The notes under the pieces are model-generated. The model did not search any database, had not been told where the DNA came from, and saw nothing but the letters and a program-made list of their open reading frames with translations. DNA of 46,691 bases, from positions 1 through 46,691 of the forward strand of contig JABMOB010000001.1 of the NCBI GenBank assembly GCA_013204345.1, read 5' to 3'. The stretch comes from Parcubacteria group bacterium (lineage in GTDB: Bacteria; Patescibacteriota; Minisyncoccia; Phycocordibacterales; JABMOB01). Position 1 is the first letter of the stretch, and the number at the start of each line of letters is the position of its first letter. The translations under genes and the position numbers were made by a program. Below are positions 29,317-44,030 of this stretch, piece after piece.

Positions 29317-29790
29317 TTAGTACTCGCGTGAGGGTGCCACGTAGATTCGAGACGTGTTGACGGGGCGGTACTCATAGTGGTCACCGACGAACACTCGCTG
29401 GTACAGTGTTTCCTCGTTGCACTGTGACTGTACGGGTGCATATTGCGCCGGTGCGATTCGCATTGGCACGACCTGTATGGGCACGACCTGTATGGGAACC
29501 ACACGAACCGGTTCCACATAGACCGGCTCCACGTAGACGGGGTAACTTCGTCCGTAACCACCGCCGTAGTGACCTCGGTTGCCGTATCCACCACCGTAGT
29601 AATGGTCACGGCTGTATTGGTCACTACTACCGAAGCTGATGTTCATACCTACCCCGAAACTCACACGTGTTTCGGTGTAGGTGTAGCTACCACGGTGGTA
29701 GCCGTGATCGCGTCGACCACCGGCGTGTGTTGTGGTGGGAGCGAATCCCCACAACACTAAGACCGTCAGAATTCCGATCATCGTCTTCAT
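29317..29790 (-). CDS. Secreted G/Y-rich protein with VEPV / VVPIQ repeats, GC-rich gene
   Basis: A 157-residue protein with a signal peptide (MIGILTVLVLWGFAPTTTHA). A G/Y/H/R-rich stretch with GGGYG repeats (about residues 60-80) follows, then tandem short repeats YVEPVYVEPVRVVPIQVVPI at about residues 84-105, and a tail with one cysteine. The gene is far richer in G and C than its neighbours and uses different codons. It has a consensus promoter, an AGGAGG six bases before the ATG, and a strong terminator, so it is an independent unit. No family is recognised. Probably an exported, disordered, cell-surface or matrix protein. Composition suggests recent transfer or strong selection on codon use. 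Confidence 0.75.
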   Translation of the reverse strand: MKTMIGILTVLVLWGFAPTTTHAGGRRDHGYHRGSYTYTETRVSFGVGMNISFGSSDQYSRDHYYGGGYGNRGHYGGGYGRSYPVYVEPVYVEPVRVVPIQVVPIQVVPMRIAPAQYAPVQSQCNEETLYQRVFVGDHYEYRPVNTSRIYVAPSREY

Positions 29791-30455: not shown

Positions 30456-32873
30456 ATGAAAAAAGATATAGAAAAAAACAAAAAATTAGTTTTGCTCGAC
30501 GCTCACGCTATTATTCATCGCGCATACCATGCCTTACCAGATTTTTCTTCCACCAAAGGCGAACCCACAGGAGCACTTTATGGTTTGGTTTCAATGTTGA
30601 TCAAGATTATAAATGACCTGAGTCCGGATTATCTCATCGCTTGTTATGATGTTCCTGAGCCGACACATCGTCATGAGGTCTACAAAGAATATAAAGCTGG
30701 AAGAAAAAAAATTGATGATGAACTTATACTCCAACTAGAGCGTTCAAAAGATATTTTCAAAGCTTTGAATATTCCTATTTATTCAAAAGCTGGTTTTGAA
30801 GCGGATGATGTTATCGGCACAATTGTTTCTTTGTTAAAAAACGATTCTAATACAGATATTGTTATCGCCTCTGGTGATATGGATACACTTCAGTTGGTTT
30901 CTGGGAAAAAAGTTCAGGTTTATACCTTGAAAAAGGGAATTAAAGATACGATTGTTTATGATGAGGACGCGGTGAAGGAAAGATTTGGTTTCAAACCAGT
31001 ATTACTCACTGACTACAAAGGTTTGCGGGGAGATCCATCGGATAATATTATTGGTGTTTCCGGAATCGGCGAAAAAAGCGCAGGAATTCTTATCCAAAAG
31101 TTCGGTACAATTGAAAATATTTATAAAACTATAAAAAAAGACGAATCTCTTTTGGAAAAAGAGGGTGTGAAGAAGCGTGTGATTGAGATATTGAAAACAA
31201 ACGAAGAAGAGGCAATGTTTTCAAAAACCCTAGCAACAATTCGTGCCGATGCGCCGATTGATTTTTCTATTCCGGAGAAAAGTTGGAAAGATGGTGTTGA
31301 TATTTCTGAGGCCACTACTTTATTCACAGAGCTTGATTTTAGGACGCTTAGCCAACGTTTGAAAGATGTACTGTCTGGTGGCTCTGTGGGGCCAGTTTCT
31401 GGTCCTGTGGCTGATGTGCAGACAAAAGATGGACAAAATACACTCCAGTCATCTCTAAGCTCTCGTTTTGAAGATGTGTCTCCCGAGGAACTGAAGAAGG
31501 TGGGTCTAGCTTTATGGGTACTTAATTCTAATATGACGAATCCGACGATAGATGAAATTTTGAATTTTGCCAAAACAGAATCATTCACTGAAGCGAAAGA
31601 ATTTGTTTTAGCAGAGATAAAAAATAAAGATAAAGCAGGAGTTTACGAAAAAATAGAATTATCACTCGTGCCTGTGATAAAAAAAATGGAAGAGCGGGGA
31701 ATTATGATAGACAAAAAATATTTAGAAAAATTATCCGTAGATTATCACAAAAAATTAGACGTTCTTGAGAAAAACATTTGGCGCGAAGCGGGCGAAGAGT
31801 TCAATGTCGCTTCACCAAAACAGCTTGGAGTCGTTCTTTTTGAAAAAATGGGCTTAAAAATTAAAAATCAAAAGAAAACTAGTGGTGGTCAGATGTCCAC
31901 AAAAGAATCAGAGTTAGAAAAGATGCGCGAACTTCACCCAATCATTGGTTATGTTCTTGAATATAGAGAATTTTCAAAACTTTTAGGTACATACATAGAC
32001 GCTATTCCAAAACTTTTGGACGAAAAGTCTCGTTTGCACACAACTTTTCTTCAGGCAGGCACGACAACAGGTAGAATGTCTTCCAATAATCCGAATATTC
32101 AAAATATTCCAATAAAAACAGAACTCGGCAGAAACATTCGCAATGCTTTTGTTGCTGACAAAGGTTTTAAATTAATTTCACTTGATTATTCTCAGATTGA
32201 ACTACGGGTGGCGGCATTTCTTTCTGGCGATAAAAAACTTATAGAAATTTTTAAACAAGGAGGTGATGTTCACACTGCTGTAGCATCTCAGGTTTTTGGT
32301 GTACCTCGTGAAAAAGTAGATAAAGAAATGAGAAGAAAAGCCAAGGTTATAAATTTTGGAATTATTTATGGTATTGGGGTAAATGCTCTTAAAACAAACC
32401 TCGGGACTTCACGAGAGGAAGCTCAAGGATTTTATGACAATTATTTTAAAACTTTTGATGGTTTAGCGAAATACTTGGAGAAAATAAAGTCAGATACAGA
32501 GAAACTTGGATACACAGAAACATTTTTTGGACGCAGAAGATATTTTGAAGATTTAAAATCAAAATTACCATATATACGCGCGATGGCAGAGAGGATGGCT
32601 ATAAATGCGCCTATCCAAGGAACGGCTGCAGATATTTTGAAAATTGCTATGACTAGAGTGGAAGGGTATATAGAAAAAGAGAAGTTGAACAAAGACGCAT
32701 TTATACTACTTCAAGTTCATGATGAGCTTGTTTGCGAAGTGAAGAGCGGTCTTGTGGAAGAATTTGCTAAAAAAGCAAAGGAAATTATGGAGCAAGTTCT
32801 ACCCCTAAAAGACATTTCCGGTGTGCCGATAGTCGCAAATGCTTCTGCGGGTGATAATTGGGGAGAGGCTTAG
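30456..32873 (+). CDS. polA: DNA polymerase I
   Basis: Repair and Okazaki-fragment polymerase, 805 residues. The N-terminal 5'-3' exonuclease domain (about 1-300) shows LLDAHAIIHRAYHALP, GFEADDVIGT and TDYKGLRGDPSDNI. The middle (about 310-400) is short and lacks the acidic residues of the 3'-5' proofreading exonuclease. The polymerase domain has motif A DYSQIELR (from D577), motif B RRKAKVINFGIIYG and motif C QVHDELV (H755, D756). Starts 23 bases after tsaE, probably co-transcribed. The absence of proofreading is read from length and missing motifs. Confidence 0.96.
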   Translation: MKKDIEKNKKLVLLDAHAIIHRAYHALPDFSSTKGEPTGALYGLVSMLIKIINDLSPDYLIACYDVPEPTHRHEVYKEYKAGRKKIDDELILQLERSKDIFKALNIPIYSKAGFEADDVIGTIVSLLKNDSNTDIVIASGDMDTLQLVSGKKVQVYTLKKGIKDTIVYDEDAVKERFGFKPVLLTDYKGLRGDPSDNIIGVSGIGEKSAGILIQKFGTIENIYKTIKKDESLLEKEGVKKRVIEILKTNEEEAMFSKTLATIRADAPIDFSIPEKSWKDGVDISEATTLFTELDFRTLSQRLKDVLSGGSVGPVSGPVADVQTKDGQNTLQSSLSSRFEDVSPEELKKVGLALWVLNSNMTNPTIDEILNFAKTESFTEAKEFVLAEIKNKDKAGVYEKIELSLVPVIKKMEERGIMIDKKYLEKLSVDYHKKLDVLEKNIWREAGEEFNVASPKQLGVVLFEKMGLKIKNQKKTSGGQMSTKESELEKMRELHPIIGYVLEYREFSKLLGTYIDAIPKLLDEKSRLHTTFLQAGTTTGRMSSNNPNIQNIPIKTELGRNIRNAFVADKGFKLISLDYSQIELRVAAFLSGDKKLIEIFKQGGDVHTAVASQVFGVPREKVDKEMRRKAKVINFGIIYGIGVNALKTNLGTSREEAQGFYDNYFKTFDGLAKYLEKIKSDTEKLGYTETFFGRRRYFEDLKSKLPYIRAMAERMAINAPIQGTAADILKIAMTRVEGYIEKEKLNKDAFILLQVHDELVCEVKSGLVEEFAKKAKEIMEQVLPLKDISGVPIVANASAGDNWGEA

Positions 32874-32906: not shown

Positions 32907-32934
32907 TTGACATTTTAGTGATTTTGTGTATACT
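32907..32934 (+). promoter_or_regulatory. Promoter of the 33.0-35.1 kb operon
   Basis: TTGACA (32907-32912), 16-base spacer, TATACT (32929-32934). The transcript would start near 32941 and carry a leader of about 94 bases with regulatory features. Confidence 0.7.
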
Positions 32935-32952
32935 ATACATAGGTTCTTTGAA

Positions 32953-33048
32953 ATGGATGCTGGGTGTTCCAGCTCCAAAACACAGGTTTTCTCGGAGGTT
33001 CCGAGAATTTTTTTTGCTCGAAAGGAGCAAGGTTATGACTCAGGTTAG
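32953..33048 (+). CDS. Possible 31-codon leader peptide overlapping the next gene
   Basis: ATG at 32953, stop TAG at 33046-33048; the product begins MDAGCSSSKTQVFSEVPRIF. It starts about 12 bases after the predicted transcript start, runs through the terminator-like hairpin and the SD hairpin, and ends 14 bases inside the next gene in a different frame. Ribosomes reading it would melt both hairpins. It may be a true regulatory ORF or chance. Confidence 0.35.
   Translation: MDAGCSSSKTQVFSEVPRIFFARKEQGYDSG
32989..33030 (+). promoter_or_regulatory. Attenuator-like hairpin followed by SD-holding hairpin
   Basis: TTCTCGG (32989-32995), loop AGGTT, CCGAGAA (33001-33007), then eight T residues: an intrinsic terminator placed inside the 5' leader. 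It is directly followed by TTGCTC-GAAAG-GAGCAA (33014-33030), a perfect 6-bp hairpin that contains the GGAG ribosome binding site of the next gene. GCTCC at 32972-32976 could pair with the same GGAGC instead. Confidence 0.65.
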
Positions 33049-33619
33049 AGTCAAAGGTTATGTAGTAGGCTTCGACAAGTCTGGGGATGAGCTTTTGTGG
33101 ACGGTCAAGGTAAAAGACCCCACAAGTGCTCACGACAACAAGAAGTTTCCTGTCGCTTCAATGCATCAAGGAAGTCTTCTTACTAAGCCCGGGGTGGACG
33201 TCACTTTCAAAGTTGAGCCTGTCCAGGTTGGGCAAGAGCAGGTTTTGAAAGCAGTTGACGTATCTTTGGGGTTCGAAAACCTCGAAGAAGAAATTGAGTC
33301 AGACGAGGCAAGTCATCAGGAATCTATCGGCTTCGCGTTGGTAGAAGAAGGTGATCTTGTTTATGTTTGGCCCAATGAGTGCAAGTCTCGTGATGAGGCC
33401 GAAGAGTGGTTGAAAGGAATGAGTGAAGAGTGCAAACTTTGCGCGTTTTTCAGAGTTCATCCTGGATTGTTTGAAACAAGTCCTACGATTGAATCTGTGG
33501 AAGACGCAACGCATGCTTTTGAAGCACTGCGTAGCATGGCGCGACTCAACTCTTTCCGAGACACACTCGCGGTTATCGTCATGGAAGCATTCGCACTTGG
33601 TCAGAAACACAAACCATAA
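33035..33619 (+). CDS. Unknown soluble protein, first gene of the two-gene accessory operon
   Basis: A 194-residue protein. Start at the ATG after GGAG (7-base spacing); the frame is open further upstream but without support. Residues 1-85 look like a small beta domain (RVKGYVVGFDKSGDELLWTV, VTFKVEPVQVGQEQVLKAV), similar in feel to OB or cold-shock folds but without RNP motifs. After an acidic linker (ENLEEEIESDE), the second half has a C-x(n)-C pattern (NECKSRD, ECKLC) and helices. No family is recognised. The gene is GC-richer than core genes. It is followed 18 bases later by the receiver-like protein gene. Confidence 0.72.
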   Translation: MTQVRVKGYVVGFDKSGDELLWTVKVKDPTSAHDNKKFPVASMHQGSLLTKPGVDVTFKVEPVQVGQEQVLKAVDVSLGFENLEEEIESDEASHQESIGFALVEEGDLVYVWPNECKSRDEAEEWLKGMSEECKLCAFFRVHPGLFETSPTIESVEDATHAFEALRSMARLNSFRDTLAVIVMEAFALGQKHKP

Positions 33620-33637
33620 CAAAAAGGGATTTGTCTA

Positions 33638-35071
33638 ATGATTGCTACAGTAAACAAAAAAAAGACGGGCCGAATCGTTAAAGGAGATCTTCATTTCACC
33701 ACTACGTCTGATGGACAGTTTCTTTGTCGCGAGCTCACGGAGCTCCCAACTCTCTTTGAGAATCGTTGGGATGAGGGTGAGATCATGGCTGAGATCAAAG
33801 AATATCACGCCATGATGGTGAAGCACTTCTTTCTCCGTCAGCCAGCTGATTTCGAAGGTGATCGGCGGAGCTCTGAATTTTTGGACCAAGGTCAGCCGGT
33901 AATCAACCGGATCATTAGTGAAGTGTCTGGCAAACAGGCGACGTTGTTCCACGAACTTCTTTTCACGATGAGCGACCATTGGTGGTACTACCATCCGGAA
34001 ATCAACGAAAAGTTGTTTGCTGATCGGAACAAGCTTTGGGATGAGAAACGTGCTGCCGACGGGGTTTTGGTCAACAAGTACATCAAACCTCTTTTGCCGG
34101 AACAGGTTCGGCAATCGGTCCAAAACATGAAGATGATTGGTGTTGATGTTGGTTTCGGTCATTTCGGTTTTTATTTCGCCGATGACAGTGGTGTTCGCCG
34201 TATTGTCACGGACACACAACTCGTTGAGTTGCGTGAAGTTAGAGGTTACAATTACCTCGCAATGACTCCGGACGGCAAACCTTTTGTCCGGTGTTGTACT
34301 CCGCACGGTGGTGAGAGAGCGTTTTTTGACGGCTTCAGGCTTATGAGCCATAACCGTTTTCAAACCTGCGCACCAAAACAAGTTTTTTTCGATGGTGGTT
34401 ACAAGGTCAATTCGACCCAAGTCTCCATCGTCAATGGGGTGTTGTTTGATCTCATCGAAAACGACGATGCTGTCGCTCAAACGACGGGCGCTTTCATGGG
34501 GATGTGCGATTTTACCGGTAAAGACATGATGAAGTCGGTGGAGCTGTCGGAACAGACAGCCAAGCAGTTACGAGTAACTCGTGGACGAGTTTTTCTCGGC
34601 GATCGGGAGCTCAAACCCGTCGGGCGGTTCAATCCGAGTCGCGTTACTTTGCTTGATTCCGGCTTCTCGTTGTATAGTTGGTCCGACTTCGAGGAAATCT
34701 TTGTTTGTCGGTACGATTCCGTGCTTGTGATTGACGATAGCGCTGATTGGATCAGTGCCGTTAAGCACGAGTTTCGGGGTGAGATTTCGAGTCTTCGCAC
34801 TTTCCGAACGAAAAGTCGCGTATCTGCTCTGAAGCGGATCATGACACTTCAGCCGGAAGCGTTGATACTCGATATGCATCTGACTCCCGAAGAAGGTTTC
34901 AATGGGTTGTGGATCGCCAACCAACTGATCAGTCACGGTTTCAAAGGACTGATTCTTATCGCCTCGAGTTATCATGACGAGCAACTGCAGGCGATGCAGA
35001 AGCTGATCAAAGGCAAGACCAAAGCTCCAGGCAAAAACCTTGCTCGGATCCGTCAGTGCCTGTGTAAGTAG
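33638..35071 (+). CDS. Large unknown protein with C-terminal receiver-like domain
   Basis: A 477-residue protein. The first 360 residues match nothing recognised; an IGVDVGFGHFGFYFADDSG stretch at about residue 168 faintly recalls the phosphate-1 loop of actin-like folds, but this is weak. Residues about 362-477 resemble a response-regulator receiver: SVLVIDDSADW with the acidic pair D366-D367, LILDMHLTPEEG with candidate phospho-Asp D412, IASSYHDEQ (Ser/Thr position) and a lysine-rich end. The domain is C-terminal, unlike usual regulators, and no histidine kinase is nearby. AAGGG sits 9 bases before the ATG. A strong terminator follows. GC-rich relative to core genes. Confidence 0.75.
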   Translation: MIATVNKKKTGRIVKGDLHFTTTSDGQFLCRELTELPTLFENRWDEGEIMAEIKEYHAMMVKHFFLRQPADFEGDRRSSEFLDQGQPVINRIISEVSGKQATLFHELLFTMSDHWWYYHPEINEKLFADRNKLWDEKRAADGVLVNKYIKPLLPEQVRQSVQNMKMIGVDVGFGHFGFYFADDSGVRRIVTDTQLVELREVRGYNYLAMTPDGKPFVRCCTPHGGERAFFDGFRLMSHNRFQTCAPKQVFFDGGYKVNSTQVSIVNGVLFDLIENDDAVAQTTGAFMGMCDFTGKDMMKSVELSEQTAKQLRVTRGRVFLGDRELKPVGRFNPSRVTLLDSGFSLYSWSDFEEIFVCRYDSVLVIDDSADWISAVKHEFRGEISSLRTFRTKSRVSALKRIMTLQPEALILDMHLTPEEGFNGLWIANQLISHGFKGLILIASSYHDEQLQAMQKLIKGKTKAPGKNLARIRQCLCK

Positions 35072-35097
35072 TTCTTTTGGTTCAGAAATGAATCCAG

Positions 35098-35128
35098 CCC
35101 CCGCGGTTTATCTGCGGGGGTTTTTTTT
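35098..35128 (+). terminator. Terminator of the two-gene accessory operon
   Basis: CCCCCGC (35098-35104), nine-base loop, GCGGGGG (35114-35120), then eight T residues. The T-run merges into a TATAAT (35128-35133) that probably serves holA. Confidence 0.92.
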
Positions 35129-38727: not shown

Positions 38728-38818
38728 TCTATGATGTTGACACATATATTGTTGGTGATAGTTTAAATTAGGAGTAAAAGTACAAAGATTCAGTTGTTTT
38801 TTGAAAAGGGGTTTTCAT

Positions 38819-39553
38819 ATGACTCTTCGAGTGTCTGTTGAACGTGATATCGGTGAACGTGATGGGATGGAGGATTCTTATTCTACCCATCAAAATTTTG
38901 TGGAGAAGGGTTGGTTTTTTGGAGGGGTTTACGATGGTCATGGTGATTTTGGGCTTGAGGCGGTTTCCTTTGTTGCCCAAAATGTTCCTGTTAATTTCCG
39001 AAAGGCACTACTTGTGGGAATGTCGCCGGAAGAAGCCTTCCAAGAAAGTTATAAGAAGACAGCTCAAGATTTTCCTTTTGGATGGGGTGGGTCTTGTGCC
39101 GCAAATTTTTTGATAACCCCCAAGAAAGTTTTTTGTGGAAATGTAGGGGATTGTCGGGTTCTTGTTGTTAATGACAAAAGATACCGACAACTTTCTTTTG
39201 ATCATCGAGTTGCGGTTCCATCCGAAACAGAAAGAATCCTTGAGGTTGGAGGTTTGATAGAAAATCGACGTCTCATTTCTAAGGATGAATCTTCTTGGAT
39301 TATGGTTTCTAGATCAATTGGCGATCCGACCTACAGGGAAGTTGGGTTGATAGAAACTCCGCATATTACAGTTTGTATGCGTAGGTCATGGGAATTTCTC
39401 GTAGCTGGAAGCGATGGTTTGTTTGACAAGTTGAGTAATGCAGATGTTGTGAAAGTTGTTCGAAAATTCAAAAGTCCCAAACGAATTTCTTCAGAGCTCA
39501 AGAAAATTGCTGAAAATAGCGACAATCTTGTTGTTTTGGTGGCTCGTCTTTAG
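38819..39553 (+). CDS. PP2C-family serine/threonine phosphatase
   Basis: A metal-dependent protein phosphatase, 244 residues. Motifs in order: ERDGMEDSYS (metal-binding Asp), FFGGVYDGHGDFG (DGHG core), GGSCAANFLI, FCGNVGDCRVLVV, SFDHRV, MVSRSIGDPTYR and FLVAGSDGLFDKLS (metal Asp). It is the minimal PP2C type, without sensor or membrane domains. The start at 38819 is chosen because AAAAGGGG lies 6 bases upstream; an earlier TTG would place that site in the coding part. It has its own terminator. No matching Ser/Thr kinase lies in the window. Confidence 0.9.
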   Translation: MTLRVSVERDIGERDGMEDSYSTHQNFVEKGWFFGGVYDGHGDFGLEAVSFVAQNVPVNFRKALLVGMSPEEAFQESYKKTAQDFPFGWGGSCAANFLITPKKVFCGNVGDCRVLVVNDKRYRQLSFDHRVAVPSETERILEVGGLIENRRLISKDESSWIMVSRSIGDPTYREVGLIETPHITVCMRRSWEFLVAGSDGLFDKLSNADVVKVVRKFKSPKRISSELKKIAENSDNLVVLVARL

Positions 39554-43418: not shown

Positions 43419-44030
43419 CTAGATCCACTCTTTAAGTGGAACCTTCTTTTTCACGCGATATATAACAAGGGGTAGGGTGATGAAACCACTACCAATTACC
43501 ATATAAACTGGGTAAGCATAATTGGCGAAGGTTTGTTCAGGTATAGCAAAGATGTTAAGAGCACTTGCCATACAGAATACTCCCCAAGCAAATAGCCTGT
43601 CCAATTTTGGGTCTCGCCAATAACAGACAGCGGTTGGAACAGCCGCGCAACCATCGGCGATAAGTGCCATATAAAGAGCGTATTGTACAAGTGATTCTTG
43701 ATTTCGGAAAATAAACCACAAGACAAGTGAGGTGATGCCGACAGAGAGGCAGATTTTCTCCAATCTGTTCATGCGGATCTTGCTCGGGTGTTTAATCGCC
43801 ACAAGGATTGTGACGAACAGTGGGTTTGTCAAGCCGACTACCGCCATCCAAACATTTTCTCTCGCTCCCGATCCATAATAGGTAACTAAGAGAGCAAGGG
43901 CAATAATTGTCCACAGAAACCAGCTTGTTAAATTTGGCTCTATTTTCCCACTGTGAACTCTCCACACGTATGGAATGAGGGTAATAAGAACTATTACCCC
44001 AGCAGTTATACCTATCAGTTCTTTGTCCAA
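43419..44030 (-). CDS. Polytopic membrane protein of unknown function
   Basis: A 203-residue protein with about seven hydrophobic helices (LIGITAGVIVLITLIPYVW; WFLWTIIALALLVTYY; AVVGLTNPLFVTILVAI; ICLSVGITSLVLWFIF; YALYMALIADGCAAVPTAV; and two more). The start is a TTG at 44030, supported by AAGGAGGTG with 6 bases to the TTG, one of the best ribosome binding sites in the window. The helix arrangement with internal PY/NP motifs faintly recalls PQ-loop or SemiSWEET-type transporters. It has a consensus promoter with a perfect palindrome in its spacer, so regulation by a repressor is likely. Confidence 0.78.
   Translation of the reverse strand: MDKELIGITAGVIVLITLIPYVWRVHSGKIEPNLTSWFLWTIIALALLVTYYGSGARENVWMAVVGLTNPLFVTILVAIKHPSKIRMNRLEKICLSVGITSLVLWFIFRNQESLVQYALYMALIADGCAAVPTAVCYWRDPKLDRLFAWGVFCMASALNIFAIPEQTFANYAYPVYMVIGSGFITLPLVIYRVKKKVPLKEWI

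Follow-up and report, generated by a model that had tools for sequence, protein, structure and literature searches.

Antitermination at the boxA of rRNA operons involves NusB, NusE, NusA and NusG, together with SuhB in E. coli. The known action of the E. coli boxA complex is to prevent termination by Rho (PMC5725501), and control of mRNAs by boxA is experimentally supported for E. coli suhB and for a ParE-like toxin gene of C. koseri (Baniulyte et al. 2017, PMC5725501). In these gamma-proteobacterial leaders (PMC5725501), as in the leader described here, an rRNA-type boxA lies in the 5' UTR of a coding gene, upstream of the Shine-Dalgarno (SD) sequence. The present case comes from another phylum, and its core is GTTCTTTGA where theirs is GYTCTTTAANA. 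Here boxA is placed at the extreme 5' end, directly after the promoter, and ahead of many unrelated accessory genes; the leader under study also contains an internal intrinsic terminator, and Rho was not found. The nut sites of phage lambda (boxA-boxB, N protein) share with this leader a boxA and a small hairpin, followed by a terminator that has to be passed. However, no N-like protein was identified here.

The locus and its leader

The window, which is the whole stretch of 46,691 nucleotides that was analysed, is contig C3. The genome comprises 47 contigs (756 kb in total) and has a completeness rating of 100%. The genes of the window include polA, ruvB, dnaA, dnaN and tyrS, as identified from translations, and this content, together with the named relatives, suggests Patescibacteria. 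The leader separates polA (stop at 32873) from a two-gene unit on the forward strand, 33035-33619 and 33638-35071, which is closed by its own intrinsic terminator on the same strand (35096-35122). Gene 1 starts at ATG 33035 and encodes 194 amino acids with no match in Pfam or NCBIfam. Gene 2 encodes 477 amino acids, and its C-terminus holds a response-regulator-receiver-like stretch that scores under the Pfam cut-off. The GC3 values of the two genes are 0.46 and 0.55, respectively, compared to about 0.30 for most window genes. Gene 1 is preceded by the SD sequence AAAGGAG (33021-33027); an SD-like sequence within 22 nt is missing from 31 of the 36 window genes. Genes of high GC3 (0.44-0.62; most others about 0.30) are located in the window at 33035-35071, 29317-29790 and 43419-44030, and three of these four genes have a strong SD.

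To obtain orthologous leaders, homologues of gene 1 were sought. A sample of 98 genomes and another of 384 each gave a single weak relative, with the similarity in the N-terminal part, and viral contigs gave none. The leaders of both relatives are without boxA and were of no use for this purpose. One relative (L272) is situated immediately 5' of an AAA+ ATPase gene that appears proteasomal-ATPase-like by eye.

A sigma-70-type promoter, TTGACA-16-TATACT, precedes the leader on the forward strand at 32907-32934 (TTGACA 32907-32912, TATACT 32929-32934) and matches the consensus at 11 of 12 positions. From the promoter spacing, transcription would start near 32941, giving a leader of 94 nt. In the predicted fold, a first hairpin (32954-32977) pairs GGAUGCUGG with CCAGCUCC and contains GCTCC (32972-32976). 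The intrinsic terminator follows at 32989-33015, with a G+C-containing stem of 7-8 pairs (32989-33007) and a run of eight U residues immediately 3' (T8, 33008-33015). An SD hairpin of 6-8 bp, UUGCUC-GAAAG-GAGCAA, occupies 33014-33030; TTGCTC (33014-33019) pairs with GAGCAA (33025-33030), and most of the SD is held within it. A leader ORF, the U8 hairpin, the SD hairpin and GCTCC had all been listed in a preliminary description of this DNA, and each is present where it had been placed.

As a whole, the leader folds more stably than expected (z = -3.5; equal stability in 1 of 200 shuffles). The SD hairpin is within chance, as stems with 6 or more pairs that cover GGAG arose in 25% of upstream shuffles. 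The alternative pairing of GCTCC with the SD, also put forward earlier, is negligible, with no pair above a probability of 0.001. In the absence of a bound factor there is no competing antiterminator of similar stability, since folds that leave out the terminator are worse by at least 7.5-8 kcal/mol. Pairing of boxA with UCGGAGG in the 5' arm of the terminator was considered as an antiterminator; it could form in the nascent RNA, but the terminator is more stable by 7.5 kcal/mol or more. If the SD stem is prevented from forming, the best fold has boxA paired with AAAGGAG. Because terminator-less folds pair boxA with the 5' arm of the terminator and folds with a blocked SD stem pair it with the SD, a factor bound to boxA could influence either. 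An Rfam scan of the window returned two tRNAs only, and the leader matched no known riboswitch or leader family above the gathering score.

The leader ORF

The preliminary description had suggested that translation of a leader peptide could control both termination and ribosome access. Leader-peptide attenuators of the trp, his and erm type share with this leader the combination of a short ORF, a terminator and an SD hairpin. Unlike them, the window leader has no clear SD for its ORF, no regulatory codons, no conserved peptide and no antiterminator of similar energy. The ORF of 31 codons runs on the forward strand from ATG 32953 to TAG 33048 (peptide MDAGCSSSKTQVFSEVPRIFFARKEQGYDSG) and overlaps the start of gene 1 out of frame. 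Its length is in the range expected by chance: in shuffled leaders, an ATG-initiated ORF extended past the gene start in 25% and an ORF of at least 25 codons occurred in 7%. A second ATG (32957), four bases past the ORF start, is in frame with gene 1 with no intervening stop codon, and two of the three frames are therefore open. The codons of the ORF include no run tied to the downstream genes.

Attenuation in which translation of this ORF keeps the terminator from forming and opens up the SD hairpin would agree with an ORF that covers both hairpins and stops just inside gene 1, and the terminator is indeed lost when the leader is folded with a ribosome footprint at 32965-33005. Against this stand the features of the ORF just described. 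In addition, no leader ORF was noted in the other boxA leaders inspected, and the approach of a ribosome to ATG 32953 is occupied by boxA itself. We consider leader-peptide control very improbable, and the ORF is probably untranslated.

A boxA-like element at the 5' terminus

The recurring signal in this leader is a boxA at the 5' terminus, which the preliminary description overlooked. The predicted RNA begins with GGUUCUUUGAAA (32942-32953), which matches the rRNA boxA, the site of NusB and NusE. GGUUCUUUGAAA is the rRNA boxA core in B. subtilis and others. The boxA-like element (GGTTCTTTGAAA, 32942-32953, forward strand) begins near +2 of the transcript. In the source genome the rRNA operon is cut by a contig end; the element was compared with the rRNA leaders of genomes from the same order. 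Its core, GTTCTTTGAAA, agrees with 16S leader cores such as GTTCCTTGAAAAC, TTTCTTTGAAAAC and CTTCTTTGACAAC. The 16S genes of the order start with AGAGTTTGATCCTAGCTCAG, and upstream of them GTTCCTTGAAAACTGAA, TTTCTTTGAAAACAGAA, TTTCTTTGACAATTGAA, CTTCTTTGACAACTAAA and GTTCCTTAACAACAGAA were observed. A boxA-like site was detected at p<=0.01 relative to shuffles in 14 of 27 16S leaders, including a few sites that are 5' of the promoter and hence not boxA.

The window leader resembles rrn leaders in boxA sequence and in promoter-proximal placement. In many rRNA leaders of the order the boxA-like site is found about 30-130 nt after the -35 box, often behind a hairpin, whereas boxA spans about +2 to +10 here and is thus nearer to the 5' end.

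Promoter-boxA leaders across the lineage

A search for whole-leader repeats in the source genome showed that the promoter-boxA part alone recurs. Genomes were searched for a promoter followed within 2-16 nt by GTTCTTTGA, using the same pattern read backward as the control. In genomes of the same order, 59 matches were obtained in 50 of 197 genomes, upstream of accessory genes, compared to 4 for the control. The distance from the -10 box to GTTCTTTGA was 6-16 nt with a peak at 9-10, and no match fell at 2-5 nt even though the pattern allowed it (n=55; four of the 59 were excluded by eye as poor promoters). This peak places the beginning of boxA within approximately the first ten nucleotides of the transcript. 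The window leader belongs to this class, with GTTCTTTGA 8 nt after the -10 box, followed by an SD and an accessory gene. A wider pattern gave four matches in the source genome and none for the control: the window leader, a gene for a long proline-rich protein (C21), a membrane-protein operon (C24) and a small gene (C34). By eye, the operon on C24 is NfeD-like.

A GTDB-wide scan with a strict pattern yielded 60 stretches, and Patescibacteria account for 37 of the 49 named ones (counted from titles). The matches outside Patescibacteria include two 16S rRNA leaders and one tmRNA leader, and leaders of tmRNA and tRNA are among the matches on phage contigs. On this evidence, a promoter-proximal GTTCTTTGA marks the transcripts of stable RNAs in several lineages, and Patescibacteria have it on mRNAs as well. 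Some viral matches were inside phage genes and were set aside as chance. In four tRNA-rich phage contigs (L154, L183, L229 and L232), the promoter and GTTCTTTGA precede an RNA-like sequence that recurs among them, AGAGGAAGTTC...ACAGCAGATG; it appears RNase P-like by eye and has no Rfam match.

The leaders of stable RNAs bear on the possibility that GTTCTTTGA is a 5'-end element read by an agent other than Nus factors, such as a stabiliser of the 5' end, or an anti-SD-like sequence able to pair with AAAGGAG. The fold obtained with the SD stem blocked and the position at about +2 to +10, nearer to the 5' end than in rRNA leaders, are consistent with such a role. However, the rRNA, tmRNA and tRNA leaders carry the same core yet have no SD to pair with, and we regard this explanation as improbable.

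Within 260 nt, 46 of the 91 collected boxA leaders have an SD followed by an ATG, compared to a mean of 8.6 in shuffles. This enrichment, together with the unusual GC3 and SD of the window pair, suggests that the genes behind boxA leaders are a group of accessory genes that were acquired or are controlled separately. In the open literature searched on boxA in Patescibacteria and on leader RNAs there, no such leaders are described, which is weak evidence, as subscription papers are mostly outside that coverage.

A covarying hairpin beside boxA

In many other boxA leaders, a long hairpin with symmetrical internal loops is located about 12-40 nt 3' of boxA. When 13 leaders were aligned, 13 of 20 pairs had changed on both sides and 94.6% of the cells could pair. 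The covariation score was 0.568, compared to at most 0.151 when the partners were slid. The hairpin was picked from folds of the same 13 sequences, which is a bias in its favour, but selection alone does not give two-sided changes. Rfam gave no match to the hairpin at the loci checked. A covariance model built for it, R1, has matches in 93 of 247 same-order genomes, several per genome; this is an upper figure, as some matches are mere long palindromes matched on both strands. Examples of an interrupted, covarying hairpin of about 20 bp after boxA and upstream of accessory genes are found at L041, L045, L047, L100, L104, L109, L113, L114, L142 and L144, among others. R1 is a candidate RNA family absent from Rfam, as predicted from these alignments, and would offer a searchable marker of genes of unknown function. 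The window leader scored 11.3 bits against R1 (E 1.2) and falls outside this class, and the source genome has no R1 match at E 0.001.

NusB and Rho

A NusB domain is encoded in the source genome (E 9e-35), fused to NUDIX. The fusion gene (L269:1041-1937; G000:C5) is followed directly by the RNase III gene, rnc (1959-2654), on the same locus. Relatives with NusB have open frames of similar length, and one translation displays the same NusB-NUDIX layout. The RNA-binding domain of Rho was not detected in any of 21 genomes, and no Rho match above the cut-off was obtained in 31 genomes; the sub-threshold matches are probably F1-type ATPases. As Rho was not found in the group, a role of boxA in protection from Rho is unlikely there.

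The leader terminator and its possible passage

Counting both strands, nine terminators of this strength are present in the window, mostly near gene ends, compared to 0.2 per strand per 46.7 kb in Markov controls. The leader terminator is comparable in quality to the gene-end terminators. An intrinsic terminator separates boxA from the gene in only one of the 91 boxA leaders, that of the window. Sister leaders were also sought by a pattern of boxA, T7 and AAGGAG, and the window locus alone carries it among 397 genomes. The attenuator part is unconserved in this sample, which contained no same-family genome. The preliminary description had named a lack of hairpin conservation as grounds for refuting its model, and in this sample no such conservation was seen; because the combination of boxA and terminator is seen only here, conservation gives the attenuator no support.

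The reading that we tentatively favour, with confidence a little short of even, is a leader conditioned by boxA and Nus factors that serves a two-gene accessory operon and includes a lineage-specific attenuator. Transcription would start near 32941, and boxA (GUUCUUUGA) would be exposed within the first dozen nucleotides, to be bound, as on rRNA, by NusE/S10 and NusB (here the NusB-NUDIX fusion). The polymerase would then reach the intrinsic terminator about 50 nt downstream. With the boxA-bound Nus complex on it, the polymerase would read through more frequently, and an unloaded polymerase would stop near 33015. The supply of free NusB and S10, linked to ribosome synthesis, would set the expression of 33035-35071, and ribosomes would initiate gene 1 at the strong SD just upstream of its ATG. 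The transcription start, binding of NusB/NusE, read-through at the leader terminator and the direction of regulation are points that we infer.

The boxA/Nus reading is favoured by the recurrence of the promoter-boxA arrangement, the match to the rRNA core, the presence of NusB in the genome, the gene-end quality of the leader terminator and the operon's own terminator. Passage of the terminator by Nus-loaded polymerase would be the best purpose found for a strong terminator behind a strong promoter. The leaders of the two weak gene 1 relatives, which lack boxA, and the truncation of the genome's own rRNA leader, which removes its boxA from comparison, count against the reading, and action of boxA on an intrinsic terminator is an extrapolation, since the E. 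coli complex is known against Rho-dependent termination. The broader proposal of the preliminary description, a regulatory leader with an internal terminator, is strengthened by the near-consensus promoter, the quality of the terminator and the recurrence of promoter-boxA leaders elsewhere.

Nearly equal in standing to the attenuator reading is another explanation, possible rather than probable, in which boxA binds NusB/S10 but acts otherwise, via translation, RNase III processing of the leader or the stability of the mRNA. The U8 hairpin would then either terminate passively and in part or serve as terminator to the polA unit upstream. The remaining 90 boxA leaders have no internal terminator, and many have the long covarying hairpin beside boxA, a plausible RNase III substrate; the adjacency of nusB and rnc in the source genome points the same way. 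In E. coli suhB, boxA represses translation (PMC5725501). There is also no other strong terminator between the polA stop (32873) and the leader terminator. However, a strong terminator between a near-consensus promoter and a gene wastes transcription unless it is read through, and the window leader is without the long hairpin.

Beyond this locus, we would give an even chance to the view that Patescibacteria of this order, apparently without Rho, use a 5'-end boxA of the rRNA type as a general regulatory tag on mRNAs. The tagged genes would be accessory ones that bear an SD and look foreign, and beside boxA there would often be a conserved hairpin RNA that is missing from Rfam. The supply of NusB/S10, and with it ribosome synthesis, would control this regulon, and the window leader would be a variant that puts an intrinsic terminator behind the tag. 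If true, a large uncultured lineage, apparently without Rho, has protein genes that form a regulon under Nus factors, and the function of boxA is separable from protection against Rho. The terminator-bearing leader would then be a natural setting in which to see if polymerase loaded at boxA can pass a terminator of the intrinsic type.

Two further arrangements were observed. In the window, upstream of a PP2C-like phosphatase gene, 38738-38819 contains TTGACA, a degenerate GTTTTTTGAAAA and AAAAGGGG and may be a boxA leader of a weaker kind. At L037:1260-1384, LOOT RNA (RF03000) lies just 5' of a boxA leader, on the opposite strand.
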